Assembly: GCF_003207795.1 (NCBI RefSeq)
Contig: NZ_NIRT01000009.1
Coordinates: 62,001-126,000, forward strand
From: Komagataeibacter nataicola
Lineage (GTDB): Bacteria; Pseudomonadota; Alphaproteobacteria; Acetobacterales; Acetobacteraceae
Direction of reading: 5' to 3'
Length of the DNA: 64,000 nt
The translations under genes were made by a program, and so were the position numbers. Each line of letters begins with the position of its first letter. Positions within the stretch are counted from its first letter, which is position 1. The notes below the pieces were generated by a model. The model ran no database searches, was not told the origin of the DNA, and saw only the letters and a list, made by a program, of their open reading frames with translations. Shown here piece by piece: positions 14,579 through 31,856 of this stretch.

Positions 14579-14731
14579 CCAGCGTGTCAATGGCGGGTGG
14601 GGCAATCTGGCACGTGCGCCTGGCCCTTGATGGGCGCACTATCGGGGCCATCATCGGTTCCATGCGGAGCATGCCGGTAGGGCAGGGAGGTAGCGGCCAC
14701 ATTGCACAATGCAGGCCGCCTGGCTGGCAGC

Positions 14732-15655
14732 TTAATCTGGTGTATTCATCTGCCCAAGGATCGAACGCAGGTTGCCATCATGCGCCTTAAGCAGCGGTTC
14801 GATCTGGTCTGCGGGAATGCCGGAACAGATCATGACAGCGCGTTTGACATTGAACCGCGTGGTCTCGAGTGCGCTCAGGGCCTGCTGTTCGGTGCTGCCG
14901 CTCAGGTTGCAGACCATGCGGCAGGCCCGCTGGCGCAGCTTGGCGTTGACCACCCGCATATCCACCATCTGCCCACGATAGGCATGGCCCATACGGATCA
15001 TGAGCGTGGTGGAAATCAGATTGAGGGTTGCTTTCTGTGCCGTGCCGGCCTTGAGCCGGGTAGACCCGGAAATGACTTCCGGCCCCGTCACCACGGCAAT
15101 GCCCAGATCCGCAACACTCACGAGCCTGCTGTCACGATTGCAGGCGATGCCAATGGTCAGGCTGCCTGCCGTGCGCGCGGCCGCAACCGCCGCGCAGGTA
15201 TAGGGGGTAGAGCCGCTTGCAGCGATGCCCAGCACCACATCGTCCGGGCCGGGATGGTGGGAAAGGATGTCCGTCCGTGCCACGTCTTCCCGGTCTTCGG
15301 CCCCTTCCGCCGCCTGATAGACGGCGTCATTCCCGCCCGCCAGCAACAGCACCAGCCGTTCGGGCGCCCAGCCAAAGGTGGGGAGCAGTTCCACCCCATC
15401 CTGCATTCCGATCCGCCCCGATGTGCCTGCGCCGACATAGAACAGCCGCCCCCCCGCCAGCAGGCGCGGCAGGGCCGCGTTGACGGCGCGTTCAAGGTCC
15501 GGTGTCGCGGCCCGCACGGCGGCAATGGCGCTCATCTGTGATTCCACCAGCGCATCAAGCACGGAAGCAACGGGCCAGATATCCACATCCGCATAACGTG
15601 GGTCCTGTCCCTCTGTCGCGATGGGCAACACGGGAGCACTGCTGTTTGGGGTCAT
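14732..15655 (-). CDS. murQ: N-acetylmuramic acid 6-phosphate etherase
   Basis: MurQ removes the lactyl ether of MurNAc-6-P to give GlcNAc-6-P and D-lactate. The SIS fold is evident: YVGAGTSGRIGMQDG at 73-87 (phosphosugar loop) with Glu89 in DGVELLPTFG matching the catalytic Glu of the family, and GIAASGSTPYT further on. Length (307) is normal. It is the second gene of a minus-strand pair behind a beta-lactamase-fold lipoprotein gene, 39 bp apart. It takes the product of AnmK (9827-10951) and hands GlcNAc-6-P to NagA (30753-31856). Confidence 0.96.
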   Translation of the reverse strand: MTPNSSAPVLPIATEGQDPRYADVDIWPVASVLDALVESQMSAIAAVRAATPDLERAVNAALPRLLAGGRLFYVGAGTSGRIGMQDGVELLPTFGWAPERLVLLLAGGNDAVYQAAEGAEDREDVARTDILSHHPGPDDVVLGIAASGSTPYTCAAVAAARTAGSLTIGIACNRDSRLVSVADLGIAVVTGPEVISGSTRLKAGTAQKATLNLISTTLMIRMGHAYRGQMVDMRVVNAKLRQRACRMVCNLSGSTEQQALSALETTRFNVKRAVMICSGIPADQIEPLLKAHDGNLRSILGQMNTPD

Positions 15656-15694
15656 GTACCATAAACTCCGGGGGATGGGGGATAGGAAGGGGGT

Positions 15695-16879
15695 TCAGCC
15701 CTGCGGCGGAGTCAGGGCGAGGGCTGCCGCGGTGGCCACATCGTGGCGCAGGCGCACGACATTGCCGTGCCCCGCAGGGTGCAGGCGGCTGGTCAGGATC
15801 AGGACATAGCTGTCACTGCCGGGGTCAAGCCACAGCGACGTGCCGGTAAAGCCGGTATGACCGAAGGAGCCGAGGGGAAACCTGTCCCCCCGCACGGAGG
15901 AATAATGCGTGGAAATATCCCACCCCAGTCCCCGCAGGTCGGATTTTCCCTCCGGCTGCTGTGCGGTTGTCATGAGCATGACGGTGTTTGGTTGCAGCGG
16001 AAAGGCCGATGGCCTGCCCGCACGCCGGTCCAGCAGCGCCTGTGCATAGAGGCACATGTCATCTGCGTTGGAAAACAGGCCCGCATGCCCGGCTACGCCA
16101 CCCATGCGGCGGGAGGAGGGGTCATTGACCTGCCCGCGCAGCATGTGACCGTTTTCATCCGGCTCGGTGGGAGCAGTGCGAGGCAGCCATGTTTCAGGCG
16201 GCAGGAAACGCGACTGCCGCATGCCCAGCGGCGTAAGGATGAAGCGCGTGGCGTAGGCATCGAGCGTCATGCCCGAGAGTTTTTCAACCAGGAAACCCAG
16301 CGTGATGAAATTGATGTCGCTGTAGATAAAACCACTGCCTGGCGGTTGTGACGGTGCAACATTCATGGTCAGACGGAATGCGGCATCGCGCCCCTGCCAT
16401 GGATGCGTAAGGTCCAGATCGGGCGGCAGGCCGGAATAATGGGTCAGCAGGTGCCGGATGGTAATGGTGGATTTACCAGCCGCCGCGAATTGCGGCAGAT
16501 AACGCGAGACAGGATCATCAAGCCCGAACCGCCCCTGTTCCCATAACCGCATGACGCAGGGCGCGGTTATGACTGGCTTGGTCAGGGATGCCATGTCGAA
16601 TACCGTATCCCACGTCATGGGTTCGGCCATGGGGGTGACGGCGCGCCTGCCATATACGGCCCGATGCACGATCTGCCCGTCATGCCCGATGGCGCAGACA
16701 ACCCCCGGCGCCTCGCCCTCGGTCACGGCCTGCCGCAGCCTGCGGTCCACGCCGCGCATGTCGGGGCTGGCGTGGTGGGCGCCGCGCGCATGGGGCGCGC
16801 AGGCCGTAACCGTTGTGGCGCCTGCCAGCATCAGGACATGACGGCGCTTCAGCCGGGTGGCGGCCGGGAAAACATGCAT
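15695..16879 (-). CDS. Beta-lactamase-fold serine hydrolase, predicted lipoprotein
   Basis: A class C beta-lactamase/AmpH/EstB-type hydrolase. The active-site SLTK is at 98-101, HYSG supplies the YxN-like element near 175, and GHTGFTG near the C-terminus is the KTG-like box. The N-terminus KRRHVLMLAGATTVTAC has arginines, a short hydrophobic core and a lipobox with Cys27, so it is probably exported (perhaps by Tat) and anchored as a lipoprotein. Such proteins are often murein-active amidases or peptidases rather than antibiotic-degrading enzymes. Co-direction with murQ supports action on muropeptides in the periplasm. A TTG six bases upstream (16885) is an alternative start. Confidence 0.87.
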   Translation of the reverse strand: MHVFPAATRLKRRHVLMLAGATTVTACAPHARGAHHASPDMRGVDRRLRQAVTEGEAPGVVCAIGHDGQIVHRAVYGRRAVTPMAEPMTWDTVFDMASLTKPVITAPCVMRLWEQGRFGLDDPVSRYLPQFAAAGKSTITIRHLLTHYSGLPPDLDLTHPWQGRDAAFRLTMNVAPSQPPGSGFIYSDINFITLGFLVEKLSGMTLDAYATRFILTPLGMRQSRFLPPETWLPRTAPTEPDENGHMLRGQVNDPSSRRMGGVAGHAGLFSNADDMCLYAQALLDRRAGRPSAFPLQPNTVMLMTTAQQPEGKSDLRGLGWDISTHYSSVRGDRFPLGSFGHTGFTGTSLWLDPGSDSYVLILTSRLHPAGHGNVVRLRHDVATAAALALTPPQG

Positions 16880-16885
16880 GTGCAA

Positions 16886-17166: not shown

Positions 17167-18630
17167 ATGTCCGCAATCGATATCTCGATTATCTGCATCT
17201 ATTGCCTGACCCTGCCATTCATTGCATTCGCCCTGTCGGGGCGGCAGGATTCCGTTTCCACCTATGTAGGTGGCGGCCATGATCTGCCATGGTGGGTTAT
17301 CTGCCTGTCCCTTGTCGCGACGGAAACCTCGACCCTTACCATCATCAGCATACCCGGCATCGCCTATGGTAGCGGCATGGTGTTCGTGGGGCTGGCGGTG
17401 GGTTATGTCACCGGTCGCGCGCTTGTTGCGTGGCTGTTTCTGCCCCGCTATTTTTCCGGGCAGGTCAGCAGCGTCTACCAGTATCTGGGCCATCGGTTCG
17501 GGCCAGCGATGGAGCGCACCGTATCTGCCACGTTCCTGATCATGCGCGTGCTGGCGGAAGGGATCAGGCTGTTTGCGGGCATGCTGCCGGTCGCGGCCAT
17601 CCTGACATCCATGAACTTTCCCCTGCCGCAGTGGGTAATCATGCTGGTCATTGCAGGTCTCACGCTGTTCTATACGATGTTTGGCGGCCTGCGGGCCGTG
17701 GTGTGGTCTGATGCAATACAGCTTGCTGTCTATGTAACGGGAACGGCGGCCTGCCTGGGGCTGCTGTACCATCATGCAACAGACATGCAGATTCATGCGC
17801 TGCGCCACTCCAACAGGTTCCACCTGTTTCACAAATCTTCCTACTATTTTCTTGACCCCTATACTCCCTGTGCTGCCATGATCGGGGGGGCGATCATGGC
17901 CATGGCATCGCATGGCACGGATCAGCTGATGGTCCAGCGCGTTCTGGCCGCCCGCAATCTGACGGATGCCAGAAAGGCGTTGATCGGCAGCGGGTTCATG
18001 GTGGGGTGTCTGTTTGCCATGCTGTCGCTCGTGGGCATGCTGCTCTGGGCGCGCAATGATGAAAAACCGCTGGCTGCAATGGGGCTGCAGACATCGGATG
18101 CGCTGTTCCCCGCCTTTATCGTGCATGACCTGCCCCAGGGGCTTGCCGGGTTGCTGATTGCAGGCCTGCTGAGTGCGACCATGGGCTCCCTGTCCGCCAC
18201 GCTCAATTCCATGACCAGCGCGACATTGCTGGATTTTGTCCTGCCCTGCCGGGCGCTGGCGCGTCGGGCTGGCCTGTCTGCGCTGGCCTTTGCCCGCGTG
18301 GTGACCATGCTTTGGGCTGTAGTGCTCGTGCTTGCCGCACTGGCCTTTGCCCACAGTCATGGGCCTGCGGTTGTCTTCGGCCTGTCGGTGGCGTCATGTT
18401 CATACGGGGCGATGCTGGGGGCTTTTGTGTTTGCCATGTTCAGTACGCGCGCGCGCACGCGGGAGATCCTGCCGTCTTTCGTCATGACCGTCGTTACGGT
18501 CTGCGGAGTCATGATGTTCTGGCGCCCTTATGGCGCGACGATCGCCTTTACATGGCTGGTTCCGCTGGGTGTCATCGTGATGTTTGTCTGTGGTCTGGGT
18601 TTGAGGGGCATTGGAAAGATCCGGCAATAA
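17167..18630 (+). CDS. Sodium:solute symporter, SSS family (487 aa)
   Basis: An integral membrane protein with about 13 hydrophobic helices. SSS family features include YVGGGHDLPWWVICLSLVAT, ETSTLTIISIPGIAYGSG and YFSGQVSSVYQYLGHRFGP, close to the sodium-site and substrate helices of the SLC5-like group. It sits between the murQ operon (divergent) and the hexosaminidase gene (same direction). This makes an amino sugar or anhydro-muropeptide sugar the likely substrate, but the sequence alone does not identify it. With no PTS gene in the window, this permease and the FucP-type permease at 26422 are the two inner-membrane entry routes for the regulon. Confidence 0.9.
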   Translation: MSAIDISIICIYCLTLPFIAFALSGRQDSVSTYVGGGHDLPWWVICLSLVATETSTLTIISIPGIAYGSGMVFVGLAVGYVTGRALVAWLFLPRYFSGQVSSVYQYLGHRFGPAMERTVSATFLIMRVLAEGIRLFAGMLPVAAILTSMNFPLPQWVIMLVIAGLTLFYTMFGGLRAVVWSDAIQLAVYVTGTAACLGLLYHHATDMQIHALRHSNRFHLFHKSSYYFLDPYTPCAAMIGGAIMAMASHGTDQLMVQRVLAARNLTDARKALIGSGFMVGCLFAMLSLVGMLLWARNDEKPLAAMGLQTSDALFPAFIVHDLPQGLAGLLIAGLLSATMGSLSATLNSMTSATLLDFVLPCRALARRAGLSALAFARVVTMLWAVVLVLAALAFAHSHGPAVVFGLSVASCSYGAMLGAFVFAMFSTRARTREILPSFVMTVVTVCGVMMFWRPYGATIAFTWLVPLGVIVMFVCGLGLRGIGKIRQ

Positions 18631-18897: not shown

Positions 18898-21135
18898 ATG
18901 CCAACCCTGAAAGAATTGAGCCCCATGGTTTCGATCGTGCATTGTGCTTTCCGCCTCGTCCGGAAATCATGCCCCGTGTTTGGTGTTCTGCTGGCATGTG
19001 TCACCCCTGCCATGGCTGGCCCGTCCACTCTTCCGCTGATGCCGCAGCCGCAGTCGGTCACGGTTATGGACCCTGCAACGCGGAGTATTGCGGGTGGCAT
19101 CCGCATTGACTGGACGCAGGCGCCTTCACCGCTGCTGCGCCGCGCCGAACAGCGCTTTGTGGCGCGTCTGCGCAACCTGGCAGGACGGGCTGCCGAAGGT
19201 GCCCCGCTGACCTTGCATATCACGACCGGGCATGACCCTGCTTACCTGAGTGTTGATGAGAAGGAGGGGTACACACTCTCCACGTCCGCGCCAGACGGGA
19301 TTTATCTCTCGGCTGCCGGGCCGGCAGGGGTTCTGCATGGTCTGGCAACGCTCCTGCAACTTGTCGAGCTTACGCCGCAGGGGGCGGTGCTCGGGCATGT
19401 CGACATACAGGATTCCCCCCGTTTTGCCTGGCGGGGGCTCATGATTGATGTGTCCCGGCATTTCATGTCGGTTGACACCATCCAGCGGCAGCTTGATGCG
19501 ATGGAACTGACCAAGCTGAACGTGCTGCACTGGCACCTGAGCGACGGTACGGGGTTCCGGGTGGAAAGCAGGCGTTTTCCGCGTCTGCAGCAAGTGGGCG
19601 GGCACAACCAGTATTACACGCAGGAACAGGTGCGCGGTATTGTGGCTTACGCTGCTGACCGCGGGATCCGTATCGTGCCGGAATTCGATGTGCCGGGCCA
19701 TACGCTTTCCATCCTGCAGGCCTATCCTGATCTTGCGGCGCAGCCCGTACCTACGGAGCAGGAAATACATCCCGTCTGCTCGATTACGGTAGATACGCAG
19801 AAGACCCAGACAAGCTGCAACAAGGTCTATAATCAGAACAATCCCGCCCTTGACCCGACCCAGCCGCAAACGCTGCGTTTTGCAACGGCGCTCTATGCCG
19901 AAATGGGCCGTCTTTTCCCCGACCGTTATTTCCACTCGGGCGGCGATGAAGTCGCGCCCCAGCAGTGGATGAACAATCCCGCCATTACACGGTATATGAA
20001 GGTGCATGGCTATCGTGATGCGCCAGCCCTCCAGGCCGCCTTTACCGCGCAGATCGAACAGGCGCTGGCCCGGCAGGGAAAAATCATGATGGGGTGGGAT
20101 GAGGTCAGCGAGGCCCCCATCCCGCGTGATGTGGTGGTTGAGGCATGGCGTGGATCAAAATGGATTGGCTCCGCCACCCGGGCGGGCCACCCGGTTGTGG
20201 TCTCATCGGGGTATTATCTGGACCTTCTCAATCCGTCCGCAACGCATTATCAGGTTGATCCCCTTGACCCGAAAGCGGTCGGCCTGTCCCCCGCCGAGGT
20301 TGAAAAGGCCCGTGTGAAGCAGGGGCCAATGATCGATGCCTTTGCGCTGGACCCCAACGCACCGGCGCTTGACGCAGCACAGAGCCGGCTGGTCCTTGGC
20401 GGGGAAGCGCCATTATGGAGCGAGATCGTCTCGGATGAGATGGTCGATGCACGGCTGTGGCCACGTTCCGCTGCTATTGCCGAACGGTTCTGGTCAGATG
20501 CATCCGTGCGTGACGTAACGGACATGGAACGCCGCCTGCCGGTCGTGCTGCATGAGCTGAATATGATGGGACTGCAGTCGGAAAATCACCAGAACGACAT
20601 GATTGCCCGCCTGGCTCCGCAGAACACGACGCCCCTGAAAGTCCTGACATCCGTCACCAGCCCGGTCAGAAACTATGCCATGAACCGCCTTGCCGCGCAT
20701 GGTGGGGATGCCATGCTGAGTGCTCCGGCCGCGATTGCAAGCCCCGACAGCTTTGCCGCCATGAAATTCAACACGCTGGCACAGCGCTACATAAAAGGGG
20801 ACCACGCACGCGCATCCGACCTGAAGGCAATGCTGGTGACCTATAAGGCCAATGATGCCGCCTATGCGCAGATTGCGACCACACCCGCGCTGCAGGAGGC
20901 AAGGGGCACTTCGCAAGAACTGGCAGAGGTGGCGCAAGTCGGGCTTGAAGCCATAAAAAGAAGAAGTCATGGCCGTCACTGGCATAAACGGGTCAATGCC
21001 ATTCTGGCCAGGCAGGATGCGGCTTTTGCAGCATGCGCCGATGCAGTGGCAGCCCATACCATGCCCTTGCCAGCATCAGGCCTGCTGATTGATATCCTGC
21101 CCGGGCTGCACCTGCTGGTTGATCGTGCCCATTAA
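18898..21135 (+). CDS. Beta-N-acetylhexosaminidase, GH20
   Basis: Releases terminal beta-linked GlcNAc/GalNAc from chitin oligomers or glycans. A secretion signal (LVRKSCPVFGVLLACV, cleaved near AMA-GPS) is followed by a GH20b-like domain. The TIM barrel has WRGLMIDVSRHFMSVDTIQR, LHWHLSDGTGFR, VPEFDVPGHT and the catalytic pair Asp350-Glu351 in HSGGDEV. Length (745) is normal for GH20 with a C-terminal helical region. Likely periplasmic or outer-membrane located, it would trim oligomers admitted by the TonB receptors. ATG 18898 is used; ATG 18925 would give a shorter, more typical signal peptide. Confidence 0.93.
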   Translation: MPTLKELSPMVSIVHCAFRLVRKSCPVFGVLLACVTPAMAGPSTLPLMPQPQSVTVMDPATRSIAGGIRIDWTQAPSPLLRRAEQRFVARLRNLAGRAAEGAPLTLHITTGHDPAYLSVDEKEGYTLSTSAPDGIYLSAAGPAGVLHGLATLLQLVELTPQGAVLGHVDIQDSPRFAWRGLMIDVSRHFMSVDTIQRQLDAMELTKLNVLHWHLSDGTGFRVESRRFPRLQQVGGHNQYYTQEQVRGIVAYAADRGIRIVPEFDVPGHTLSILQAYPDLAAQPVPTEQEIHPVCSITVDTQKTQTSCNKVYNQNNPALDPTQPQTLRFATALYAEMGRLFPDRYFHSGGDEVAPQQWMNNPAITRYMKVHGYRDAPALQAAFTAQIEQALARQGKIMMGWDEVSEAPIPRDVVVEAWRGSKWIGSATRAGHPVVVSSGYYLDLLNPSATHYQVDPLDPKAVGLSPAEVEKARVKQGPMIDAFALDPNAPALDAAQSRLVLGGEAPLWSEIVSDEMVDARLWPRSAAIAERFWSDASVRDVTDMERRLPVVLHELNMMGLQSENHQNDMIARLAPQNTTPLKVLTSVTSPVRNYAMNRLAAHGGDAMLSAPAAIASPDSFAAMKFNTLAQRYIKGDHARASDLKAMLVTYKANDAAYAQIATTPALQEARGTSQELAEVAQVGLEAIKRRSHGRHWHKRVNAILARQDAAFAACADAVAAHTMPLPASGLLIDILPGLHLLVDRAH

Positions 21136-21333: not shown

Positions 21334-22473
21334 TCATTCACTAAACAGGAACTGCCGGGTGGCAATGCCCGCAGCGCCGGTTGCCCAGCCGGTATGAGGG
21401 GTTTCACGCAGGTCCAGTGTCGTTTCCCAGTCGGGGCGGGGCATGATGTGGGTCTCCATGGTCTGGCGCAGGACCGCCCCGAACACACCTTCGCGGAACG
21501 GCAGGTCCAGCAGCACGACAACCTGACTGGGATCAAACAGTTGCACAAGCTGTGCAACCGCCATCCCCATTGCGCCGCCTGCCGTATGGAGAATGTGGAG
21601 GGCATCCGCATCGCCCTCCCGCGCCCGACGTTCCAGTTCCAGTGGCGTGGTTGGCAGCCCCTTCTGCTGGGCCATGGAGCGTATGGCCCGCAGGGAGGAG
21701 ACCGTGTCCAGGCACCCACGCTTGCCGCAACTGCACGGGCGGTTGGTCTCGCGCTCATCTGGCCAGACGACTGTTGTATGGGATATTTCTCCTGCGCCCC
21801 CCTGGAAGCCACGGTGCAGTTTTCCATCAACGATATGCGCGCAGCCTATGCCGCCATCACCGACGATAATCATGCTGAAATCGGGACAGTCGCGCATGAT
21901 GCCAAACAGATGCTCCCCCTGTATGAGGGCATTGGCATCATTTTCAGCAAAAACCGGCACGGACAGACGTTTTTCCAGTGGCGTGACGATATCAACATTA
22001 CGCCATTCCAGCACGACCGACCGGTAGCACAGACGCCGGTCACGCGCGACAAAGCCGGGGAGGGCAATCCCCACCCCGCCGAGCGGGCCCGCCCGGTCGC
22101 CCGCCTGCGCCACCAGTTCCCGGATGCCGCGTTCGATATTTTCAATACATATTTCAGGATCGGATGCCCGCACGAACTCTTTCTGGGCAATGATTTCACC
22201 CAGCAGATCCGTCAGCAGAATGATGCTGGGGTCGGATTGCATGGATACACCGGCAAAACAGACTGAAACCGCATTCAGACCCAGCAGGATGGAGGGGCGC
22301 CCCTGCCCGAAAACCAGTTCGCGTTCACACAGGATATTACGATCCAGCAGTTCGCGGGTTAAGGCGGACATGGTTGCCTTGCTCAATCCCGTGATTTCCA
22401 CGAGCTGGGTTCTGCTGACGGGGCCTAACGTGCTGATCGTACGGAGTACCCGGTATTGCCCTGATGTGAACAT
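21334..22473 (-). CDS. ROK-family transcriptional repressor, NagC/Mlc-like
   Basis: The N-terminal winged helix (SRTQLVEITGLSKATMSALT) is followed by a ROK sugar-binding domain with the zinc motif CSCGKRGCLD. NagC-type repressors sense GlcNAc-6-P and control nag genes. The ATG at 22473 is chosen because GGAAAGGG precedes it and it places MFTSGQYRVLR at the N-terminus. The open frame extends to 22788 but would overlap the divergent kinase gene. It is divergent from the ROK GlcNAc kinase (22659), so the 185-bp gap probably carries its operator. It differs from ROK kinases by carrying the HTH domain. Together with the GntR protein at 10948 the regulon has two regulators of different families. 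Confidence 0.9.
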   Translation of the reverse strand: MFTSGQYRVLRTISTLGPVSRTQLVEITGLSKATMSALTRELLDRNILCERELVFGQGRPSILLGLNAVSVCFAGVSMQSDPSIILLTDLLGEIIAQKEFVRASDPEICIENIERGIRELVAQAGDRAGPLGGVGIALPGFVARDRRLCYRSVVLEWRNVDIVTPLEKRLSVPVFAENDANALIQGEHLFGIMRDCPDFSMIIVGDGGIGCAHIVDGKLHRGFQGGAGEISHTTVVWPDERETNRPCSCGKRGCLDTVSSLRAIRSMAQQKGLPTTPLELERRAREGDADALHILHTAGGAMGMAVAQLVQLFDPSQVVVLLDLPFREGVFGAVLRQTMETHIMPRPDWETTLDLRETPHTGWATGAAGIATRQFLFSE

Positions 22474-22658
22474 ACGCACCCTTTCCAATATGATAGGGAC
22501 TGTTAATTTTATTTGGTGAACAATATAAGCAAAGTTATTATGATTCTGGAACTTATTCAACGTTTTTAATGATTCTGGCTGGCTTTCCACGCCAGGCATG
22601 TAGCCATATACGGCTCTGGCAGGATCATATTCGTCGCGCGTGGGCATGAGGATGGCGT

Positions 22659-23549
22659 ATGGTAGTATTATGTGCGGATGTAGGGGGGTCTTACATTGAA
22701 TTTGCGCAATCCGATGCCTGTCACAGGCTGACACACCGGCGGCGCGTGCCGACACCCACGCAGGATCTGGATCTTTTTGTTGCCGCACTGGCCAGCATGG
22801 CGGATGGATATGACCGGGCCATTCCGCTGCATATCGCCATTGCCGGGGTATGCGCCCCCATGACCGGGCGGACGCGCGCGGCCAACATCCCCTGTATTTA
22901 TGATGTGCCGTTGCGGCAGATCCTTATGCAGCGCCTGAAGCGGGATGTGCTGGTTGCCAACGATGCCCACTGTTTTGCCCTGAATGAAGCAATGCAGGGC
23001 GCTGGCCAGGGGCATGACATCGTTTTTGGGGTTATTCTTGGCACAGGGGTGGGGGGCGGCCTGATTATTCATGGTCGGCCCGTTATCGGGTCAGGTGGTC
23101 TTGCAGGCGAGTGGGGGCATGGTCCCTTCATTACTGACAGCGCCCTGCCTGGCCGTGCGCCCGTGCTGCCATGCCAGTGCGGGCAGCTGGGCTGCCTTGA
23201 TACAATAGGCGGCGCGCGTGGCATTGAAAGACTGCACCTGTTCCTGCATGGGGAGGAACTGCCCGTCCGCCCGATCCTGACACATTGGGAAAACGGTGAG
23301 CCCCGGGCCATCGAGACAGTCAACGCATGGCTTGACCGTATGTCCGCTGGGTTGGCCATGGTGGTCAATGTAACCGGGGCTTCCATCATGCCGGTGGGCG
23401 GCGGTCTGGCCCATCAGGCCAGGCTGCTGCATGCGCTGGATGAGAACGTGCGCGGCCGCATCCTGCGGCATGATGCCTCGGCGCTGGTTGTGCCGGGGGC
23501 TTTGCCCGCAGAGTCCGGGCTTGCGGGGGCGTCGTGGCTGAAATCGTGA
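22659..23549 (+). CDS. nagK: ROK-family N-acetylglucosamine kinase
   Basis: A cytoplasmic kinase making GlcNAc-6-P from GlcNAc and ATP. ATP phosphate loop CADVGGSYIEF at 5-15, catalytic NDAHCF near 107, GTGVGGGL loop, and the zinc motif CQCGQLGCLD identify the ROK kinase class. There is no DNA-binding domain. It replaces the phosphorylation that PTS uptake would provide, and its product is the substrate of NagA. It is divergent from its probable repressor and is followed, after a 385-bp gap, by the second TonB receptor. Specificity for GlcNAc rather than another hexose is inferred from context and similarity to NagK. Confidence 0.88.
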   Translation: MVVLCADVGGSYIEFAQSDACHRLTHRRRVPTPTQDLDLFVAALASMADGYDRAIPLHIAIAGVCAPMTGRTRAANIPCIYDVPLRQILMQRLKRDVLVANDAHCFALNEAMQGAGQGHDIVFGVILGTGVGGGLIIHGRPVIGSGGLAGEWGHGPFITDSALPGRAPVLPCQCGQLGCLDTIGGARGIERLHLFLHGEELPVRPILTHWENGEPRAIETVNAWLDRMSAGLAMVVNVTGASIMPVGGGLAHQARLLHALDENVRGRILRHDASALVVPGALPAESGLAGASWLKS

Positions 23550-23934
23550 GGGTCGGGTCGCGATTTCGAACGATCATAAATGCCATCATTGCGATCAAAT
23601 AATAAAATGCCTGACTGGCCCTCCCAGTTCATCCTCCCATATGGCACTTTATATCTGTTGCCGAATTAACACGCTGCCTGAATGCCCCCGTAAGGGTAAA
23701 TGAATAATTCTCGTTCATGAAACCCTATGCTTTTCATTGAGAAAATTTTCCAGATGGCAAGAGATGAGGCCTAAATCGGGGCAGGGGAAATGACTGTATA
23801 CTTTGTTTTTATAATAAAACTATCATAGGACAGATTCTGAACTATTGCGCCGGCACAGGCTGATCTGCATTATACGTTAAGGAAGCAAAACGTTTGTTTC
23901 GCAGCTTTTACTCCAAATGCAGGGATTCACGCTC
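23550..23934. promoter_or_regulatory. Intergenic region upstream of second TonB receptor
   Basis: A 385-bp stretch, AT-rich between 23640 and 23900. No open frame with a recognisable product is present. It probably holds the promoter for the receptor-permease-nagBA gene series, but no clear operator repeat was found, and the TGGTATT half-site of the other promoters is absent. Confidence 0.35.
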
Positions 23935-26364
23935 ATGAAGGTTTCGTACCGTAATCTATCCCTCTGTTGTACTATCTGGGCGAGTCTGGTGATCGTTCCC
24001 GCGTATGGACAGGTTTCGGCTGCGACGCGTAACGGATCTGTAAATACTTCTGCGGCCAAGGCCCGTGCAAAACCTCCGGCGGCTGCGGCACGGACAGCGG
24101 CACCGCCCGCGCCCCAGGTTGAACATATCACTGTCAGCCGGCACATTCCGCCCACGGCCAATGGCGTGACCAACCTGACACCGGGCGGCGGACTGATGCC
24201 TCCCCAGACCGCACCACGCTCACAAAGTGGCCTGACGCGTGACTTTATTGCAAAACAGGCACCTACGGCCAATATTGCCGCCCTTGTGGCGGATCTGCCA
24301 GGCGTCAACTTTTCCAGTCAGGATCCGTTTGGCCTGACGGGAAACAACATGACCATGCGTGGCATGACACAGGCCCAGATCGGGTATCTGTTCGAAGGGG
24401 CGCCAATGGCGGATCCCATCAATTACCAGCCTTACAGCAGCATGATGGTCGATTCAGAAAACCTGGGATCGGTTACCGTTTCACAGGGGTCGCCTGACCT
24501 TGATGCGCCCCTGTACAACGCAGTGGGCGGGCAGATTACGGCCACCGAGATCAATCCGTCGCATAAACAGCGCGGATTTGTGGATCTGGCAGGCGGCACA
24601 CATAGCGCCAACAAGGAATTCATCCGTTACGAAACCGGAGATATCGGTAATACCGGTATTCGGGGCTTCGTGTCCTTTTCTCACACCAGTTATAATAACT
24701 GGCGTGGTCCGGGTGGACTATTCCGTTATCATGTCGATTCAAAATTTGTAAAAGAATGGGGCGATGGCAACAGCATTTCCGCCATCTTCTCCTATAACCG
24801 GCAGCAGCAGACCTCCTGGAGGTCGCCCACACTTTCCCAGTGGAACAAATATGGGGACAGCTTCAATTATTCAGGATCATTCACCCAGGGTGACCCGACA
24901 TATTACGGGTTGCAGGTTACAAACATGAATGCCGAGACGGTTATCCTGCCGTCCCATTTTACATTGACCAAACACCTGAAGTTGCATGTCACTCCTTACT
25001 TTGAACATCAGTTTGGTCCGTCCAACGCAGGGGAGAACATTCCCACGACCGGCGGTTACATGGGCACCCAGCGTTATGACAGCCTGGTCGGCATACCGAC
25101 CGGAAACGGATCGGTCCTGACCGAGGGCGTTGACCCGTGGGACCAGAAAAGCGGGTCGCTGAACATGTCGCTCGACTGGACAAGGGGCCATAACAAACTG
25201 TCAGTTGGATATTGGTACAACTATACATCCCATCAGGAACTTTCCACGTTCCGGCAGGTCTATGCCAATGGTTCGTATTCCAACAGCCCCATTATCGATG
25301 CCACGAACGGGCGCATCCTGACAGGCTATGACCTGAACTTCAAACAGCAGGTCAATACGCTTTTCATCGCCGATACCCTGAGCCTGCTGCACGACAGGTT
25401 GACCCTGAGCGCTGGCTTCCGGGCGGCAATGGTCAGCCGCACAGGCACGAACAACGTGCCGGGGGCGGATCCCTATTACAAGGCGGGCAATTACTTTGAG
25501 CCCCTGCCGCAGTTTTCCGCCAGTTTCAAGATCACGCCGCATGACCAGATTTTTGTCAACGGCACGACTGCCTTCCGTGCGCCAGCTTCGGTGGAGGCGT
25601 ACAGCCAGATCTTTGACCCCAATAATTCACACGCAGTGGAACAGCCCGGATCGCTCAAGCCTGAATATTCCATCGGGGAAGAAATCGGCTTTCGTCATTC
25701 CGGTTTTGTTAACGTGGCGGTGTCCCTGTTCAATCTGAACATGACCAACCACCAGGTTACATCCATGAATTACATTCCGGGCACAACGCAGCTGATTTCC
25801 GAACCCATCAATATTGGTGGGCAGACATCACGCGGCATCCAGGCTGAAATCGGCCTGCGGCGCTGGCATCATATCAGCCCGTATTTCTCCGGTCAGTACC
25901 TGCATGCAACGATGGATAACAACTATAATGCCGGTGGCGGGAATTATCTGCCAACGGCCGGAAAGATTGCTGTTGAATCACCCAAATTCACCGGTGCGAT
26001 CGGCCTGAATTATGATGACGGGCGCTTTTTCGGCAACTTTGCGCTGCGCTATGTTGACTCCCAGTACACGACGTTCATGGATGACGAAAAAATTCCGTCC
26101 TACATCACATCGGACATAACGCTGGGTTATCGTATGAAGAAGCTGGGTCCGGCAAAGGCGCCGCAGATACAGTTGAATATCATGAATATTGGCGATAACC
26201 ATTATCTCTCGGGTGGCTCCAGCTTTACCAGCAATGCCCATCCGGTCAACACCGTCGCGGGTGGCCTTTACAGAAGCAGCACGGGCGGGGCGAGCACATC
26301 CGCGCCCATCTATCTGGTAGGAGGCGCATTCGCTGCCATGGTTTCGGTATCGGCAGGGTTCTGA
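23935..26364 (+). CDS. TonB-dependent outer-membrane receptor (809 aa), paralogue 2
   Basis: A signal peptide (MKVSYRNLSLCCTIWASLVI, cleaved near AYG-QVS) leads to an Ala/Pro-rich linker. A plug follows (LVADLPGVNFSSQDPFGLTG, TMRGMTQAQIGYLFEGAPMA), then a barrel with terminal Phe (MVSVSAGF). Length equals that of the receptor at 12088, and long blocks match (for example GGGLMPPQTAP, SASFKITPHDQI, GQYLHATMDNN). ATG 23935 is preferred over 23917 because AGGGA lies 9 nt ahead and the signal peptide begins there. It is the first gene of a series leading into a FucP-type permease and nagB/nagA, so GlcNAc oligomers are the likely substrate. Confidence 0.92.
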   Translation: MKVSYRNLSLCCTIWASLVIVPAYGQVSAATRNGSVNTSAAKARAKPPAAAARTAAPPAPQVEHITVSRHIPPTANGVTNLTPGGGLMPPQTAPRSQSGLTRDFIAKQAPTANIAALVADLPGVNFSSQDPFGLTGNNMTMRGMTQAQIGYLFEGAPMADPINYQPYSSMMVDSENLGSVTVSQGSPDLDAPLYNAVGGQITATEINPSHKQRGFVDLAGGTHSANKEFIRYETGDIGNTGIRGFVSFSHTSYNNWRGPGGLFRYHVDSKFVKEWGDGNSISAIFSYNRQQQTSWRSPTLSQWNKYGDSFNYSGSFTQGDPTYYGLQVTNMNAETVILPSHFTLTKHLKLHVTPYFEHQFGPSNAGENIPTTGGYMGTQRYDSLVGIPTGNGSVLTEGVDPWDQKSGSLNMSLDWTRGHNKLSVGYWYNYTSHQELSTFRQVYANGSYSNSPIIDATNGRILTGYDLNFKQQVNTLFIADTLSLLHDRLTLSAGFRAAMVSRTGTNNVPGADPYYKAGNYFEPLPQFSASFKITPHDQIFVNGTTAFRAPASVEAYSQIFDPNNSHAVEQPGSLKPEYSIGEEIGFRHSGFVNVAVSLFNLNMTNHQVTSMNYIPGTTQLISEPINIGGQTSRGIQAEIGLRRWHHISPYFSGQYLHATMDNNYNAGGGNYLPTAGKIAVESPKFTGAIGLNYDDGRFFGNFALRYVDSQYTTFMDDEKIPSYITSDITLGYRMKKLGPAKAPQIQLNIMNIGDNHYLSGGSSFTSNAHPVNTVAGGLYRSSTGGASTSAPIYLVGGAFAAMVSVSAGF

Positions 26365-26421: not shown

Positions 26422-27729
26422 TTGCCCAGGTTATACCCACAAAGCCCTGCGGGACAGTATGGCTGGCGGCCCATCGTCATTATCGCCTGCCTGTTTTTCA
26501 TCATCGGCTTTGTAACATGGCTCAATGGCCCCCTTATCACTTTTGTGCAGGTTGCCTTTAACCTGAGCACGATCAGCGCTTTTCTCGTGCCGATGTGCTT
26601 CTATCTGTCCTACCTGTTTTTTCCTTTGCCCGCGACGTTGCTGACCCGATGGACCGGCCTGAAAGGAGGACTGGTTGTTGCACTTGTCGTTCTTTCGGCC
26701 GGGGTCGCCATTTTTGGTGAATGTGTCAGTATACGTGTGTATCCTGGGGCGCTGAGCGGGCTGTTTGTCATGGGGGCGGGTCTGTCGTTACTGCAGATCA
26801 CCATAAATCCATATGTAACGCTGCTCGGACCGACGGAAAAAGCGGCCCAGCGCATTGCTATCATGGGTGTGGCCAACAAGATTGCGGGGATTGCGGCCCC
26901 CGTTGTCCTTGCTCTGCTAGTCATGCGGAATCTTGGCGATATTGCGGGGCAGGTCAGGGCCGCACCGGATATGGCGGCACGCAACCATATCCTGGATCAG
27001 TTTGCTCATGCCGTACAGATTCCGTATTTCATTATGGCGGCCGTGCTGCTGGCCCTGGCCATCGGGCTGGCGCGTTCGTCCCTCCCGCCTATCGATATTG
27101 CCGGCACATCCCGCCCGGATGCGCCTGCGCCGGAAACATCACGCCGGTCCAGATCATTCCGTCTGGGCTTCGGGGTGCTGTGCATGTTTGTTTACGTCGG
27201 CACGGAAGTCATGGCGGGGGATGCCATTGGCGTATATGGCGGCAGCCTCGGTATTCCGCTTGACCAGACCAAGTTCTTTACATCCCTGACCCTGACGGCA
27301 ATGATGGGGGGATATGTGGTGGGCATGCTGCTGGTGCCACGTGTCTTTTCGCAGGAGCGCTATCTGGGCCTGTCTGCGGTGGCTGGCGTCATATTATGTG
27401 TACTGAGCTGGCTGACACATGGCTATGCTTCGGTTCTGTGCGTGGCGCTATGTGGTTTTGCGAATGCCATGATCTTACCTTCCCTGTTCCCCATTGTTAT
27501 TTCTGATGTGGAAGATCGTGGGGCACAGGCGACCGCCCTGCTGGTCATGGCGTTTTCAGGCGGTTCGGTCATTCCGCAGGTCTTTGTCCAGATTGCGCCC
27601 GCCATAGGCGTGCAGGCTGCCTTTGTGGGGCTGGCGGTTCCATCCTATCTGTTAATCATATTATATAACATTCTCATGCAGCGCCATAAGCGGGCGCGTG
27701 TCGTGCCGGTCATGATGGTCGAGTCATGA
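26422..27729 (+). CDS. MFS sugar permease, FucP/NagP-type
   Basis: A twelve-helix MFS protein of the fucose:proton symporter group. IACLFFIIGFVTWLNGPL at helix 1, FLVPMCFYLSYLFFPLPA and the LLQITINPYVTLLG segment match FucP/GluP/NagP permeases. The start is TTG at 26422, supported by a strong GAGGAGG 6 nt upstream. Its stop overlaps the next gene's start (ATGA at 27726-27729). Position in front of nagB and nagA makes GlcNAc the probable substrate, as for NagP of other proteobacteria; this is inference. Confidence 0.9.
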   Translation: MPRLYPQSPAGQYGWRPIVIIACLFFIIGFVTWLNGPLITFVQVAFNLSTISAFLVPMCFYLSYLFFPLPATLLTRWTGLKGGLVVALVVLSAGVAIFGECVSIRVYPGALSGLFVMGAGLSLLQITINPYVTLLGPTEKAAQRIAIMGVANKIAGIAAPVVLALLVMRNLGDIAGQVRAAPDMAARNHILDQFAHAVQIPYFIMAAVLLALAIGLARSSLPPIDIAGTSRPDAPAPETSRRSRSFRLGFGVLCMFVYVGTEVMAGDAIGVYGGSLGIPLDQTKFFTSLTLTAMMGGYVVGMLLVPRVFSQERYLGLSAVAGVILCVLSWLTHGYASVLCVALCGFANAMILPSLFPIVISDVEDRGAQATALLVMAFSGGSVIPQVFVQIAPAIGVQAAFVGLAVPSYLLIILYNILMQRHKRARVVPVMMVES

Positions 27730-28922
27730 TACCCTATCGCGGGTTGTATATTTATCCGTGGGATATTCTGGACCAGGATGATCTGGCCAGCTTCGCGGTG
27801 CGCATGCGTAACATGGGCATCAATACGCTATGCGTTGCTGCAACTTACCATGCCGGGAAATTCCTGCGCCCCCATGGCCGGAGCCAGAAAGTATTCTTCC
27901 CGCAGGATGGCGCCACATATCTTCCCGTCCAGCCATGGGGGAGCGGTATCAGCCCCATCATCGCAACACAAGGGCTGAGAATGGAGGCGCTGCAGGGCCT
28001 GCACGCGCAGGGCCTGAAAGTGGCGGCATGGACCGTGCTGCTGCACAATACGGCGCTGGGTACGCAGTATCCGCAATTCACCTGCCATAATGCGTTTGGG
28101 GATAGCTATCCTTACAGCCTGTGCCCCTCTCACGAAGCCGTGCGGGAATATGGCGTCAATCTGTGCCGGGAAATGGGCGCGAACCCCTATATCAGCCAGA
28201 TCATATGCGAAACCCCGGGCTGGCAGCCGTTCCGGCATGGCTTTCACCATGAAATGAGCTTTCTTGCGCCCCATATGGGGGCCGATACCCTGCTGGGATT
28301 ATGTTTTTGCAGTGCCTGCATGTCACGGGCGGCGAAAGATGGGGTCAATGTTACGGCGTTGCGGCAGCGTGTGGCGGCATATCTGTCGCGTTACATGGAC
28401 CGCCCCGATGACAGCCCGGCTGCCGATGACGCCGGGCGGCTGATGCAGATGCTGGTCTGTGATGATGACCTGCGTGATTTCCTGCGCTGGCGTTGTGGGC
28501 AGGTTACGTCCTTTGTGGCGCAGATACGCGCGGCAGTCCGTCAGCCCGTAGGGGTATATGTAATCCCGTCCGTGATGGAAAATCCGGTTCTGTCATGGGT
28601 GGAAGGCAGTGACCTCCATGCATTGTCGCGCGTGTGCGATGGGCTGGAAGTCTGCCTGTATGGCGGTAATACGCGCGCAGCCCTGTCCCGGCTGGCCGAT
28701 ATTCGGGACATTATTGGCATTCAGGGCAAGCTCCGCACCGTTTTGCGACCTGCATCATGTGATTTCGACACTGCCGCGGCCTTTGTGGCTCATGTCCAGG
28801 CCTTGGGCAGTAGGGGCGTGGAGGAGTTCGGTTTTTATAATTTTGGTCATCTGCGTCGGGAAAACCTGCACTGGATCGATCAGGCAGTTCACGCCGTGCA
28901 GGCACAGGTACTGCCGTTGTGA
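27726..28922 (+). CDS. Unknown 398-aa protein, TIM-barrel glycosidase-like
   Basis: No family is recognised with confidence. Alternating strand/helix segments suggest a TIM barrel. The start MIPYRGLYIYPWDILDQDDL, then FAVRMRNMGINTLCVAATYH, GLKVAAWTVLLHN, ISQIICETPGW, the triple-Cys element CFCSACMSRA and a C-terminal GVEEFGFYNFGHL resemble glycoside-hydrolase-like barrels that carry a CxCxxC element after the fourth strand. Possible acids are the Glu of CETPGW and the Glu pair of GVEEFG. There is no signal peptide, so it acts in the cytoplasm. It is translationally coupled to the GlcNAc-type permease (4-bp overlap) and 19 bp ahead of nagB, so a cytoplasmic step on an imported amino-sugar conjugate is likely. 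What bond it acts on is unknown. Confidence 0.8.
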   Translation: MIPYRGLYIYPWDILDQDDLASFAVRMRNMGINTLCVAATYHAGKFLRPHGRSQKVFFPQDGATYLPVQPWGSGISPIIATQGLRMEALQGLHAQGLKVAAWTVLLHNTALGTQYPQFTCHNAFGDSYPYSLCPSHEAVREYGVNLCREMGANPYISQIICETPGWQPFRHGFHHEMSFLAPHMGADTLLGLCFCSACMSRAAKDGVNVTALRQRVAAYLSRYMDRPDDSPAADDAGRLMQMLVCDDDLRDFLRWRCGQVTSFVAQIRAAVRQPVGVYVIPSVMENPVLSWVEGSDLHALSRVCDGLEVCLYGGNTRAALSRLADIRDIIGIQGKLRTVLRPASCDFDTAAAFVAHVQALGSRGVEEFGFYNFGHLRRENLHWIDQAVHAVQAQVLPL

Positions 28923-28941: not shown

Positions 28942-29733
28942 ATGAAGATTGTCATTTGCCCCAATGTTGAACAGGCGACGTTGCTGGCGGCCCGGGTCAT
29001 GGAAGATGCCCTTCGCCAGACGCCAGACATCACGCTCGGTCTTGCCACCGGCCGCACGATGGAAAAGGTCTATGCCGCCCTTGTGCAGGCACACCGCGAC
29101 AGGGGGCTGGATTTTTCACACTGCCAGTCATTCAATCTGGATGAGTATGTCGGCATATCCCCTTCATCCACGCAGTCTTACCGCGCCTATATGCATACGC
29201 ATCTGTTTTCACGGGTGAACATCGCCCTGTCCGCCACGCATGTTCCTGATGGCATGGCAACGGATCTCGCGGCACGATGCGCCGGATATGAAAAGGCCCT
29301 GCATGCCTGCGGCGGCGTGGGGCTCCAGCTTCTGGGGCTGGGCGAAAATGGCCATATCGGTTTTAACGAACCATTTTCCGCGTTTACGTCACGCACCCGT
29401 GTCGTAACGCTGGACCCCGCCACGCGCGAACAGAACCGGAGCATGTTCGATGATGACCTTGCCCAGGTGCCCTATCATGCCGTGACAATGGGGGTGGGGA
29501 CCATCCTTGATGCAAGGCGCATCGTGGTGCTCGCAACGGGCGCGGCCAAGGCGCGTGTTGTGGCGGATATGATCGAAGGCCCGCTTACGGCCAGCATCAG
29601 CGCGACAGCCCTGCAGATGCATGCCAACTGCCTGGTCATTACCGATGAAGCCGCGGCCACGGCACTCACCCGTCGGGCCTTTATTGACCATCTGATGCAA
29701 CACGACGCGGAATTGCAGGGCCTTCTGTCCTGA
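28942..29733 (+). CDS. nagB: Glucosamine-6-phosphate deaminase
   Basis: NagB converts GlcN-6-P to fructose-6-P and ammonia. Visible are TLGLATGRTMEKVY (phosphate loop, about 31-44), FNLDEYVG with Asp67 as the ring-opening base, and GENGHIGFNEP with His138. Length is 263. The ATG at 28942 has GGAG about 7 nt ahead; the much longer open frame upstream lies inside the preceding gene and is not used. It is the last step of the GlcNAc route, fed by NagA (30753-31856) and perhaps by the BadF-type kinase next door if that acts on glucosamine. Confidence 0.95.
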   Translation: MKIVICPNVEQATLLAARVMEDALRQTPDITLGLATGRTMEKVYAALVQAHRDRGLDFSHCQSFNLDEYVGISPSSTQSYRAYMHTHLFSRVNIALSATHVPDGMATDLAARCAGYEKALHACGGVGLQLLGLGENGHIGFNEPFSAFTSRTRVVTLDPATREQNRSMFDDDLAQVPYHAVTMGVGTILDARRIVVLATGAAKARVVADMIEGPLTASISATALQMHANCLVITDEAAATALTRRAFIDHLMQHDAELQGLLS

Positions 29734-29750: not shown

Positions 29751-29792
29751 ATGACTGGCTATTTTTTCAGGATGATGACGACTGATGGATGA
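29751..29792 (+). CDS. Possible 13-codon leader ORF ahead of the BadF-type kinase
   Basis: ATG at 29751 is preceded by GGAGGAAAG, the best ribosome binding site in this gap, and encodes MTGYFFRMMTTDG. Its stop (29790-29792) lies just inside the kinase gene, whose own ATG at 29785 has no good binding site. Translation of the mini-ORF could deliver ribosomes to the kinase start. It may be only a coupling device. Confidence 0.4.
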   Translation: MTGYFFRMMTTDG

Positions 29793-30738
29793 TGCAGTTC
29801 TGGCTGTTGATGGTGGGGGCACGCGAACGCGCGCCGTTATCGTCGGGTCTGACGGGCATGTGCTCGAACATCGCCTTTCCGGTGGCAGTAACGCCTACGA
29901 TAAAGCCGATTGGGCGGAGACCCTGACGGGGCTGCTGCAGCGGGTGGACAGATACCGCCTGCGTGCGGCAACCATAGGCCTTGCGGGTTATTGTGCCGAA
30001 CGCCCCTCATCGCACATGCAGGAAAAGGTCATCCTTGATGCCCTTGGGCCGGATGTGCGCATTGGCATGTGTTCGGATGTGGAAATCGCCTGTGTCGGCG
30101 CCTTTCTGGGCGGGCCGGGCATCCTTGCGCTTGCGGGTACGGGGTCGGTCATATGGGCGGATGACCACCGCCATGCGCCATTACGTATCGGCGGGTGGGG
30201 ATACATGCTCGGTGATGAAGGCAGCGGCTACTGGATTGGCTGCATGGCCATGCGCAGGGTCGTGCAGTATATTGATACGCGCCATGCGCCGGATGCCGAT
30301 TTCGCCACGCGACTGCTGCAGGCCCTGGACCTGCCGACCGACCCGGACCGGGCGGGCGAGGCGTTGCTGGAGTGGCAGAGGGTGCAGCCCCACCCACGCT
30401 CCGCCATTGCCGCACTGGCCCATGTGCTGGACCGGCTGGCCAATGATGGCAGTGCCGATGCCCGGTCCATTCTTGTCGATGCGGCGCAATACCTGTCCGC
30501 GCAGGTCCGGGTGGCGCGTGATCGCCTGCAAGTGGTCCTGCCATGGAGCTACGGGGGCAGCGTCTTTCACAGCCGGATTGTCATGGACCAGATGACGCAG
30601 CTCCTTGGTGAACGGCCGCATATTCCACAGTTGCCCCCCATTGGTGGCGGGATCATACGCGCTGCCGCGCGTGCGGGCTGGAACATGGACGCGGCATGGC
30701 TGAACCGGCTGGACGCCGATCTGGCGCATAAATACTGA
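29785..30738 (+). CDS. BadF/BadG-family amino-sugar kinase
   Basis: An actin-fold kinase of the BadF/BadG/BcrA/BcrD ATPase family, the group that includes animal-type GlcNAc kinase and bacterial glucosamine kinases. The phosphate loops are LAVDGGGTRTRAV (6-18) and ALAGTGSVIW (about 115-124), with GGWGYMLGDEGSGYWIG after them. Length (317) is normal. Between nagB and nagA it must act on an amino sugar, either GlcNAc or glucosamine. Because a ROK-type GlcNAc kinase is already encoded at 22659, glucosamine or a modified sugar is a reasonable alternative substrate. Translation may depend on the leader ORF at 29751. Confidence 0.88.
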   Translation: MDDAVLAVDGGGTRTRAVIVGSDGHVLEHRLSGGSNAYDKADWAETLTGLLQRVDRYRLRAATIGLAGYCAERPSSHMQEKVILDALGPDVRIGMCSDVEIACVGAFLGGPGILALAGTGSVIWADDHRHAPLRIGGWGYMLGDEGSGYWIGCMAMRRVVQYIDTRHAPDADFATRLLQALDLPTDPDRAGEALLEWQRVQPHPRSAIAALAHVLDRLANDGSADARSILVDAAQYLSAQVRVARDRLQVVLPWSYGGSVFHSRIVMDQMTQLLGERPHIPQLPPIGGGIIRAAARAGWNMDAAWLNRLDADLAHKY

Positions 30739-30752: not shown

Positions 30753-31856
30753 ATGAACATCAGTGGACAGCTGGTCTGTGCCGATCAGATCCTGCCCGGC
30801 ACGATATCCTTTGACACGTTGATCGGGGATATATCAGCACGGCCCGATGCCCCGCAGCGCTATATCCTGCCCGGTTTTATCGACGGGCATGTCCACGGAG
30901 GTGACGGGGCGGATACCATGGACGGGGTCGATGCGATCCGGCGCATGTCCCGCTTTCATCTATCCCATGGCACCACGACCATCCTGCCCACCACCATTAC
31001 GCGGCCCTGGTCCGATGTCATGGATGCGCTCCGGGCGGTGGTGGAAGTGCGGCGCACGGGCAACCCCAATGGTCCCTGTATCCATGGGGCGCATCTGGAA
31101 GGGCCGTTTGTCAGCCCGCATCGTCTTGGTGCGCAGCCGCCTTTTGCAATAACGCCGGACCCGGAGCATGTAACGCAGGCCCTGTCGCTGGATATCGTGC
31201 GTGTCGTAACGCTTGCGCCAGAACTGGAACACGCGGATACCGCTATCGATGCCTTTGCCAGGGCCGGGGTCCGGATCAGCCTGGGGCATAGCGTGGCGGA
31301 TTATGAAGGTGCACGGCAGGCAATCTGCCGCATCTGCACCGCAGGCGGTGTAACGGGTGCAACGCATCTGTTCAATGCGATGAACCCCATAGAGGGCCGC
31401 CGCCCCGGGCCGGTAACCGCCCTGATGTGTAGTGATGCCACATACGCCGAAATGATTTACGACACGCATCATGTCCATCCTGCCTCCTTTCATCTGGCAC
31501 GGCAGATGATGGGGTCAAGGCTGCTGTTCGTAACCGATGCCATGCGGGGAGCGGGCATGGGCGAGGGGCAAAGCCAGCTTGGCGGCCAGACGGTTCATAT
31601 TGCCAACGGCACGGCCCGGCTCGAGAATGGCACGCTGGCGGGCAGTATCCTCACGCTTGATGTTGCGCTGCGTAACGCGGTGCAGGCAGGCGCATCCCTG
31701 CCGCAAGCCGCCGGTCTGGTCAGCGGGAATGCCGCGCGCTACCTCGGCCTGTCAGACCGGGGGGAGCTTACCGTCGGGCGGCGGGCCGATTTTGTCGTGC
31801 TGGACCGTGATCTGCACATCGAGGAGGTCTGGGTGGCGGGGCAACGCCTGCACTGA
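30753..31856 (+). CDS. nagA: N-acetylglucosamine-6-phosphate deacetylase
   Basis: NagA removes acetate from GlcNAc-6-P. The amidohydrolase barrel is clear: GFIDGHVHGGDG (42-53, metal His46 and His48), HLEGPFV with the metal Glu, ISLGHSVADY, GATHLFNAMNPI and LFVTDAMRGAG with the catalytic Asp. Length is 367. It is the last gene of the receptor-permease-unknown-nagB-kinase-nagA series and receives GlcNAc-6-P from NagK and MurQ, joining the chitin and peptidoglycan arms. Confidence 0.95.
   Translation: MNISGQLVCADQILPGTISFDTLIGDISARPDAPQRYILPGFIDGHVHGGDGADTMDGVDAIRRMSRFHLSHGTTTILPTTITRPWSDVMDALRAVVEVRRTGNPNGPCIHGAHLEGPFVSPHRLGAQPPFAITPDPEHVTQALSLDIVRVVTLAPELEHADTAIDAFARAGVRISLGHSVADYEGARQAICRICTAGGVTGATHLFNAMNPIEGRRPGPVTALMCSDATYAEMIYDTHHVHPASFHLARQMMGSRLLFVTDAMRGAGMGEGQSQLGGQTVHIANGTARLENGTLAGSILTLDVALRNAVQAGASLPQAAGLVSGNAARYLGLSDRGELTVGRRADFVVLDRDLHIEEVWVAGQRLH

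Follow-up and report, generated by a model that had tools for sequence, protein, structure and literature searches.

The 64,000-nucleotide stretch of Komagataeibacter nataicola DNA analyzed here as a whole (contig NZ_NIRT01000009.1, positions 62,001 to 126,000; hereafter the window) raises the question of what is encoded by a gene of no obvious function wedged between a sugar permease gene and nagB, within a set of genes for the use of N-acetylglucosamine (GlcNAc). Its 398-residue product and the relatives of this protein are referred to by the working name FAM. Our analysis shows that FAM is a real, conserved, unnamed and uncharacterised glycosidase-like family rather than a new kind of system. 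We suggest, with a probability of roughly 0.45, that FAM acts in the cytoplasm as a (beta/alpha)8-barrel glycosidase, which would split an imported conjugate so as to release GlcNAc or one of its close derivatives. The three adjoining genes are:

26422-27729, plus strand: NagP/GluP-type permease of the major facilitator superfamily, by family-model matches; overlaps FAM by 4 bp
27726-28922, plus strand: FAM, 398-residue TIM-barrel glycosidase-like protein, by open reading frame, AlphaFold2 model and fold matches; no Pfam or NCBIfam match
28942-29733, plus strand: nagB, glucosamine-6-phosphate deaminase, by family-model matches

The FAM frame runs from an ATG at 27726 over 398 codons to a TGA at 28920-28922. 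The TGA of the permease frame sits within the sequence ATGA, giving the 4-bp overlap, and the ATG of nagB at 28942 leaves a distance of 19 bp; a preliminary description made from the sequence had given the same gene, overlap and gap, and the coordinates bear it out. Among the five loci with the order NagP-FAM-NagB in our collection of genome contigs (genome_contigs), the 4-bp overlap is kept in four (L050, L052, L053, L054), and the fifth (L051) shows a permease-FAM distance of 0 with mechanically chosen starts. Since the frame is conserved in five other genomes (87% identity in the nearest, 60-62% in four more) without internal stops in any of them, FAM can be regarded as a real gene. Within the first 40 residues there is no strongly hydrophobic stretch, and residues 5-9 already form the first barrel strand in the AlphaFold2 model. 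FAM thus appears to lack a signal peptide, as noted previously, and is hence predicted to be a cytoplasmic enzyme.

Which kind of enzyme this may be was approached through its fold. The FAM protein was without a match to Pfam models (E-values up to 10) or NCBIfam models (E-values up to 0.1). A sequence search of solved structures with FAM alone returned a single chance-level match, and searches with FAM profiles gave weak GHL10, GH18 and unrelated matches only. The AlphaFold2 prediction (81 sequences) is a TIM barrel (pLDDT 92.7, pTM 0.92), whose nearest solved folds according to Foldseek and VIA-align are Cwp19 (GHL10; Z 26.3, root-mean-square deviation 2.9, 288 aligned residues) and the C-domain of PgaB (GH153; Z 23.6-25.7, with a deviation of 3.0 and 315 aligned residues at best Z), followed by other glycosidases, including an alpha-L-fucosidase and members of GH42 and GH35. 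This agrees with the glycosidase-like TIM barrel that had been proposed from the sequence. Profile comparison using hhalign assigned a probability of 91.6% over residues 89-162 to Escherichia coli DigH (YddW), which we take to belong to GHL10, and 2.5% (E 0.019) to PgaB, with strands beta1-beta4 aligned in order; the controls, a haloarchaeal NagZ and the GH20 enzyme of the window, reached 0.3% and 0.1%. By profile, with one member of each compared, FAM does not appear to be akin to GH20 or GH3/NagZ. The GHL10 model PF02638 (Pfam gathering cut-off 27.9 bits) left the FAM protein unmatched up to E 10; it was matched by 38 of 96 family members at E ≤0.1 (best 6.3e-5) and by four of ten members scanned singly (12.4-14.2 bits).

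GH42 beta-galactosidases share the barrel (1kwg, Z 22.3) but have no amino-sugar link; they are defined by catalytic glutamates after beta4 and beta7 and carry extra domains, whereas FAM lacks this glutamate pair and has Arg-Pro at the end of beta7. Cwp19 is the closest in fold and likewise has no beta7 glutamate; its strand beta4 ends in an Asp-Asp pair, and beta3 carries W127/R132 (PMC5765458). FAM resembles it in a conserved tryptophan on beta3 followed five positions on by a conserved residue (W102/H107), an equivalence counted along the alignment. The combination of Asp-Asp at beta4 and Arg on beta3 is not found in FAM, where Glu162 is followed by Thr, Ser, Ala or Leu across members and His107 replaces the GHL10 arginine. 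FAM further differs by its cysteine site and by an identity of only 13-14%, and Cwp19 is a secreted lytic transglycosylase of Clostridioides difficile acting on peptidoglycan (PMC6016235). PgaB, the second-best fold (12-13% identity), works in the periplasm on partly deacetylated poly-beta-1,6-GlcNAc with one proposed catalytic acid (PMC5933820). DigH is described as a divisome enzyme on denuded peptidoglycan strands (PMC12288456), while FAM is encoded in catabolic loci and does not begin with a signal-like stretch.

Residue conservation was counted over 96 aligned FAM members. W12, H42, H107, E162, H175, R256, G294, Y312 and Y371 are invariant in all 96, and further invariant columns exist. 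Strand beta7 (336-340) is followed at position 341 by Arg in 90 members, Leu in four and Asp in two, and position 342 is mostly Pro (R341-P342 in FAM). The sites of interest are:

28209-28211, plus strand: Glu162 codon, end of strand beta4 (158-162), candidate catalytic carboxylate; 96/96, opposite an Asp in the alignments to both Cwp19 and DigH
28122-28124, plus strand: Cys133 codon, predicted fourth ligand of a putative structural metal site; 94/96
28302-28319, plus strand: CFCSAC, the CxCxxC element (Cys193, Cys195, Cys198), by sequence and alignment

Glu162 could serve as the single catalytic carboxylate, with the acetamido group of the substrate or another internal nucleophile taking the place of the missing beta7 glutamate. 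Such an arrangement seems reasonable because Cwp19 is a lytic transglycosylase without that glutamate and PgaB has a single proposed catalytic acid. Several invariant histidines together with one glutamate in a barrel might, on the other hand, belong to an amino-sugar isomerase, epimerase or mutarotase, and epimerisation could be a step common to the kinase and dehydrogenase routes described below, both of which such an enzyme would serve. We regard this as rather improbable, as the fold matches listed comprise glycosidases, glycosyltransferase-like barrels and beta-amylases and no sugar isomerases, although absence from this list excludes nothing. The CxCxxC element pointed out in the preliminary description was confirmed and is joined by the fourth cysteine. 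GH42 enzymes carry a CxCxxC zinc site, and by this analogy the four cysteines of FAM may bind a structural metal. Of the 96 members, 88 have the complete set; two sequences (L105, L113) have lost all of it together, and six others keep C133 and C193 and have lost C195, with or without C198. Joint loss of the cysteines while the invariant residues stay suggests a structural rather than a catalytic site.

The family turned out to be widespread, yet no model in the copies of Pfam and NCBIfam that were searched covers it. A FAM relative is encoded by 353 of 367 candidate stretches in genome_contigs, the nearest named one being from Komagataeibacter xylinus (L050). Plasmid records gave 152 matches, mostly in Rhizobium, with haloarchaeal ones at about 24-28% identity. 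Overall, the range covers Proteobacteria, Actinobacteria and Acidobacteria metagenome-assembled genomes, and haloarchaea; a search of E. coli genomes with FAM DNA gave no match. Most relatives are labelled hypothetical in the annotated records seen, and our literature searches found no published description of the family. In a draw of 397 Acetobacteraceae genomes, FAM was matched in 20, of which 18 are credible; the other two matches are partial (G018, 22 bits; G328, 20.7 bits). By comparison, nagB was found in 73 of these genomes. A role in plain GlcNAc catabolism was therefore rejected, since most genomes with nagB do without FAM; the preliminary description had seen in FAM no known step of this pathway, and the counts add that it is not needed for it either.

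In order to find out which pathways FAM accompanies, we surveyed the genes within 8 kb of FAM in 80 loci (L050-L129) out of the 353; some of these contigs are short, so that all counts are lower bounds, and eight further entries (L031-L036, L038, L039) were left out of the 80 as they come from the same genomes as L050-L055, L059 and L104. Six loci are of a kinase type, with FAM beside a ROK kinase. Five of them hold NagP, NagB, NagK and NagA, and the sixth a NagX-like gene and a kinase; no gene for a short-chain dehydrogenase/reductase (SDR) and none of OngC, AmidoB, AmidoD or RidA type was detected in any of the six. The remaining 74 loci have neither a GlcNAc kinase nor nagB. Here an SDR gene lies directly downstream of FAM in 55 cases, in 25 of which the two genes likewise overlap by 4 bp. 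Other neighbours are a Gfo/Idh/MocA oxidoreductase (38 loci), an OngC-type pyridoxal-phosphate (PLP) enzyme of D-serine-dehydratase type (27), a MurR/RpiR regulator (27), RidA (26), an AmidoD-type amidohydrolase (23), an AmidoB-type (PRK09061) amidohydrolase (15), a NagP-type permease (4) and, in a subset, genes of ketodeoxygluconate (KDG) kinase type. At least one of SDR, OngC, AmidoB, AmidoD and RidA is present in 69 of the 74 loci and none in five; SDR and RidA genes on their own do not prove that amino sugars are metabolised, but in 42 loci there is a D-serine-dehydratase-type enzyme or else an amidohydrolase/deacetylase of the oxidised-GlcNAc kind. These labels rest on PF14031, PRK09061-type and RidA-type matches. 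As a background, PF14031 had 50 matches in 269.9 Mb from 96 genomes of the same class, from which about 0.2 genes would be expected in the 1.06 Mb examined, versus 27 of 74 loci; this comparison sets a family model for the background against protein probes for the loci, some of which are of other classes, and as the loci are related to each other the excess gives no true probability.

The gene types in these loci are those of the ong cluster for oxidised GlcNAc, which comprises a D-aminoacylase-type amidohydrolase, a D-amino-acid-deaminase-type PLP enzyme, RidA, KDG kinase and a MurR/RpiR regulator (Jiang et al. 2022, PMC9537276). None of the eight gene types annotated for that cluster is FAM-like, and the disaccharide is cut there by the periplasmic GH20 enzyme OngA (PMC9537276). 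The likeness is thus one of gene type. The window differs in having the kinase route, with no OngC-type deaminase, deacylase or RidA in its locus and no PF14031 match anywhere in its genome. Literature searches found no paper on an SDR-type oxidative GlcNAc cluster and none on glucosaminate dehydratase. Undibacterium offers a combined set of DgoK, RidA, FAM, SDR, NagP, OngC-type and AmidoB-type genes.

Two further readings arise from these neighbours. FAM could be a lactonase that opens a lactone made by the adjacent SDR, the lactone or acid being imported or made elsewhere in the case of the window. The frequent SDR junctions and overlaps would fit, as would the downstream genes, which are of types that consume sugar acids. 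However, no SDR stands beside FAM in the six kinase-type loci or was detected in those of Chitiniphilus (L121, L129) and Rugamonas (L103), for which reason a strict SDR partnership was rejected, and the nearest folds are glycosidases; we consider a lactonase improbable. Alternatively, the bond that FAM attacks in an amino-sugar conjugate might be an amide or of another kind, FAM being for instance a deacylase, and a glycosidase in looks only. Deacetylase-type neighbours are indeed common, but they, and nagA in the window, already supply this function, and the fold matches again are glycosidases, which makes this reading very improbable.

Over a good part of its range, FAM is found in amino-sugar catabolic settings. 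The link to such loci made in the preliminary description holds in part, since the wide occurrence of homologues outside amino-sugar loci that would count against it is seen to some extent: 74 of the 80 homologues lie in loci without GlcNAc kinase or nagB, while 42 of those 74 have genes of the oxidised-GlcNAc kind. Likewise, the coupling to a permease is true for the clade of the window and for some Undibacterium loci, not for the family as a whole.

A tree was calculated with a quick method and without inferring a root, leaving out L040, L043, L045, L047 and L130. A branch with support 100 separates the eight kinase-type FAM sequences from the rest, and the adjoining set adds Martelella and Acidisphaera sequences from oxidative-type or SDR loci. 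Most simply, FAM would have moved once into a kinase-type GlcNAc locus, in acetic acid bacteria, with the direction depending on the root. As kinase, NagA and NagB accompany FAM in one clade and SDR, deaminase and deacetylase elsewhere, a function retained through such a switch of route would be expected to act before free GlcNAc or its acid is formed, at the step of amino-sugar release.

What could be released in the window is indicated by its wider gene content. The further genes of the island are:

9827-10951, minus strand: anmK, anhydro-N-acetylmuramic acid kinase, 472.6 bits versus a cut-off of 352
10948-11760, minus strand: GntR-family regulator, family-model match
12013-14517, plus strand: second TonB-dependent receptor of the island, TIGR01785 at E 2.6e-13, below the cut-off of that model
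14732-15655, minus strand: murQ, N-acetylmuramic acid 6-phosphate etherase, family-model match
15695-16885, minus strand: serine hydrolase resembling PBP4B, below the PBP4B cut-off
17167-18630, plus strand: sodium/solute symporter, family-model matches
18898-21135, plus strand: GH20 beta-hexosaminidase, family-model match
21334-22788, minus strand: ROK-family regulator (Mlc/NagC-like); the listed frame may begin upstream of the real start
22659-23549, plus strand: ROK-family sugar kinase; GlcNAc kinase models come nearest, with scores below their cut-offs
23917-26364, plus strand: TonB-dependent receptor, family-model match
29785-30738, plus strand: BadF-type kinase resembling NagK_SO3507, below the cut-off of that model
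30753-31856, plus strand: nagA, GlcNAc-6-phosphate deacetylase, family-model matches

The genes follow this order, with the permease, FAM and nagB between the TonB-dependent receptor at 23917-26364 and the NagK-like kinase; the portion from anmK to the PBP4B-like hydrolase (9827-16885) lies upstream of the nag genes. The permease scores above the GluP cut-off (TIGR01272, 263.3 versus 202.55 bits) and matches NagP_SO3503 at E 6.5e-75, yet below the cut-off of the latter. A CutC-like gene at 8986-9813 adjoins anmK.

Because of the known roles of AnmK and MurQ, the island may be read as pointing to cell-wall amino-sugar salvage. FAM would accordingly receive GlcNAc, or a related amino sugar or amino-sugar acid, bound in a small conjugate that is imported whole, in the window likely a peptidoglycan-derived disaccharide or another GlcNAc glycoside. 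The kinase, NagA and NagB would then take over the freed GlcNAc, and AnmK and MurQ would process an (anhydro)muramic acid partner, if there is one; in the relatives, the liberated sugar would proceed via SDR, deacetylase, PLP deaminase and RidA to ketodeoxygluconate. The imported amino-sugar conjugate suggested earlier fits the neighbours.

A narrower reading takes FAM as the substitute for NagZ in these acetic acid bacteria, with the role of a cytoplasmic hydrolase of GlcNAc-anhydroMurNAc (anhydro-N-acetylmuramic acid). The presence of AnmK and MurQ in the island would fit, and a search with NF003740 found no NagZ in the genome of the window, whose sole GH3 protein is a 769-residue, two-domain-sized frame with a signal-like stretch near its start. 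Moreover, all eight FAM genomes of this clade in the 397-genome draw have AnmK and no NagZ, while the other ten credible FAM genomes have NagZ. This pattern is, however, confounded by descent: in the 14 same-genus genomes of the draw, NagZ occurs in none, AnmK in nine and credible FAM in two. Since NagZ is absent from the whole same-genus sample, we keep this reading as a rival only, and as AnmK persists in the genus without either enzyme, the gap would be filled otherwise elsewhere. In addition, no AmpG-type importer was found in the genome by TIGR00901, and two GH20 enzymes exist. On balance, we hold it to be unlikely. As to the enzyme that frees anhydroMurNAc in the genus, the 14 genomes yielded no NagZ candidate even where AnmK is present.

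Several points weigh against FAM as an amino-sugar glycosidase. The many invariant histidines would be in keeping with a metal enzyme as well, and the Asp aligned with Glu162 may be the buried first residue of the Cwp19 Asp-Asp pair instead of the catalytic second. Similarity to GHL10 is below the Pfam cut-off wherever a score was shown. The oxidative-pathway labels denote gene types, not a comparison with the published Ong proteins, and most nag loci of Acetobacteraceae are without FAM. Finally, outside the clade of the window, AnmK or NagZ stands beside FAM only in two haloarchaeal loci, on a very long branch. If FAM is nevertheless a cytoplasmic amino-sugar glycosidase, it would supply the first step that many uncharacterised oxidative amino-sugar loci are missing, and it may help to close the cell-wall salvage gap in acetic acid bacteria, which often keep AnmK in the absence of NagZ. 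It is unlikely that the full extension of this proposal applies, namely that FAM, with a single carboxylate ending beta4 and an internal (acetamido) nucleophile, constitutes a new family of intracellular glycoside hydrolases, acts as entry enzyme to both kinase and oxidative routes, and cuts the peptidoglycan disaccharide in NagZ-less acetic acid bacteria.

The two haloarchaeal loci (L025, L027) are on plasmids and combine FAM with anmK, DUF1343 (NamZ), nagZ and GH18 genes, one of them also with a peptidoglycan recognition protein, which suggests that these haloarchaea feed on bacterial cell wall; a literature search found nothing on haloarchaea with anhydro-N-acetylmuramic acid. Long branches leave the placement of the haloarchaeal sequences in the tree unsure. 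Their other FAM loci contain a sugar ABC transporter, a creatininase, an MR/MLE enzyme, an SDR and often RidA, and one has sialidase- and GH38-type genes instead. NamZ is also present in the relatives' loci L051, L052 and L054; a model search gave no match to it in the genome of the window. As a minor observation, a conserved frame of about 113-116 residues, with no Pfam or NCBIfam match, lies near FAM, the SDR and the oxidoreductase gene in 15 loci (e.g. L069:12969-13310 and L095:12966-13316).

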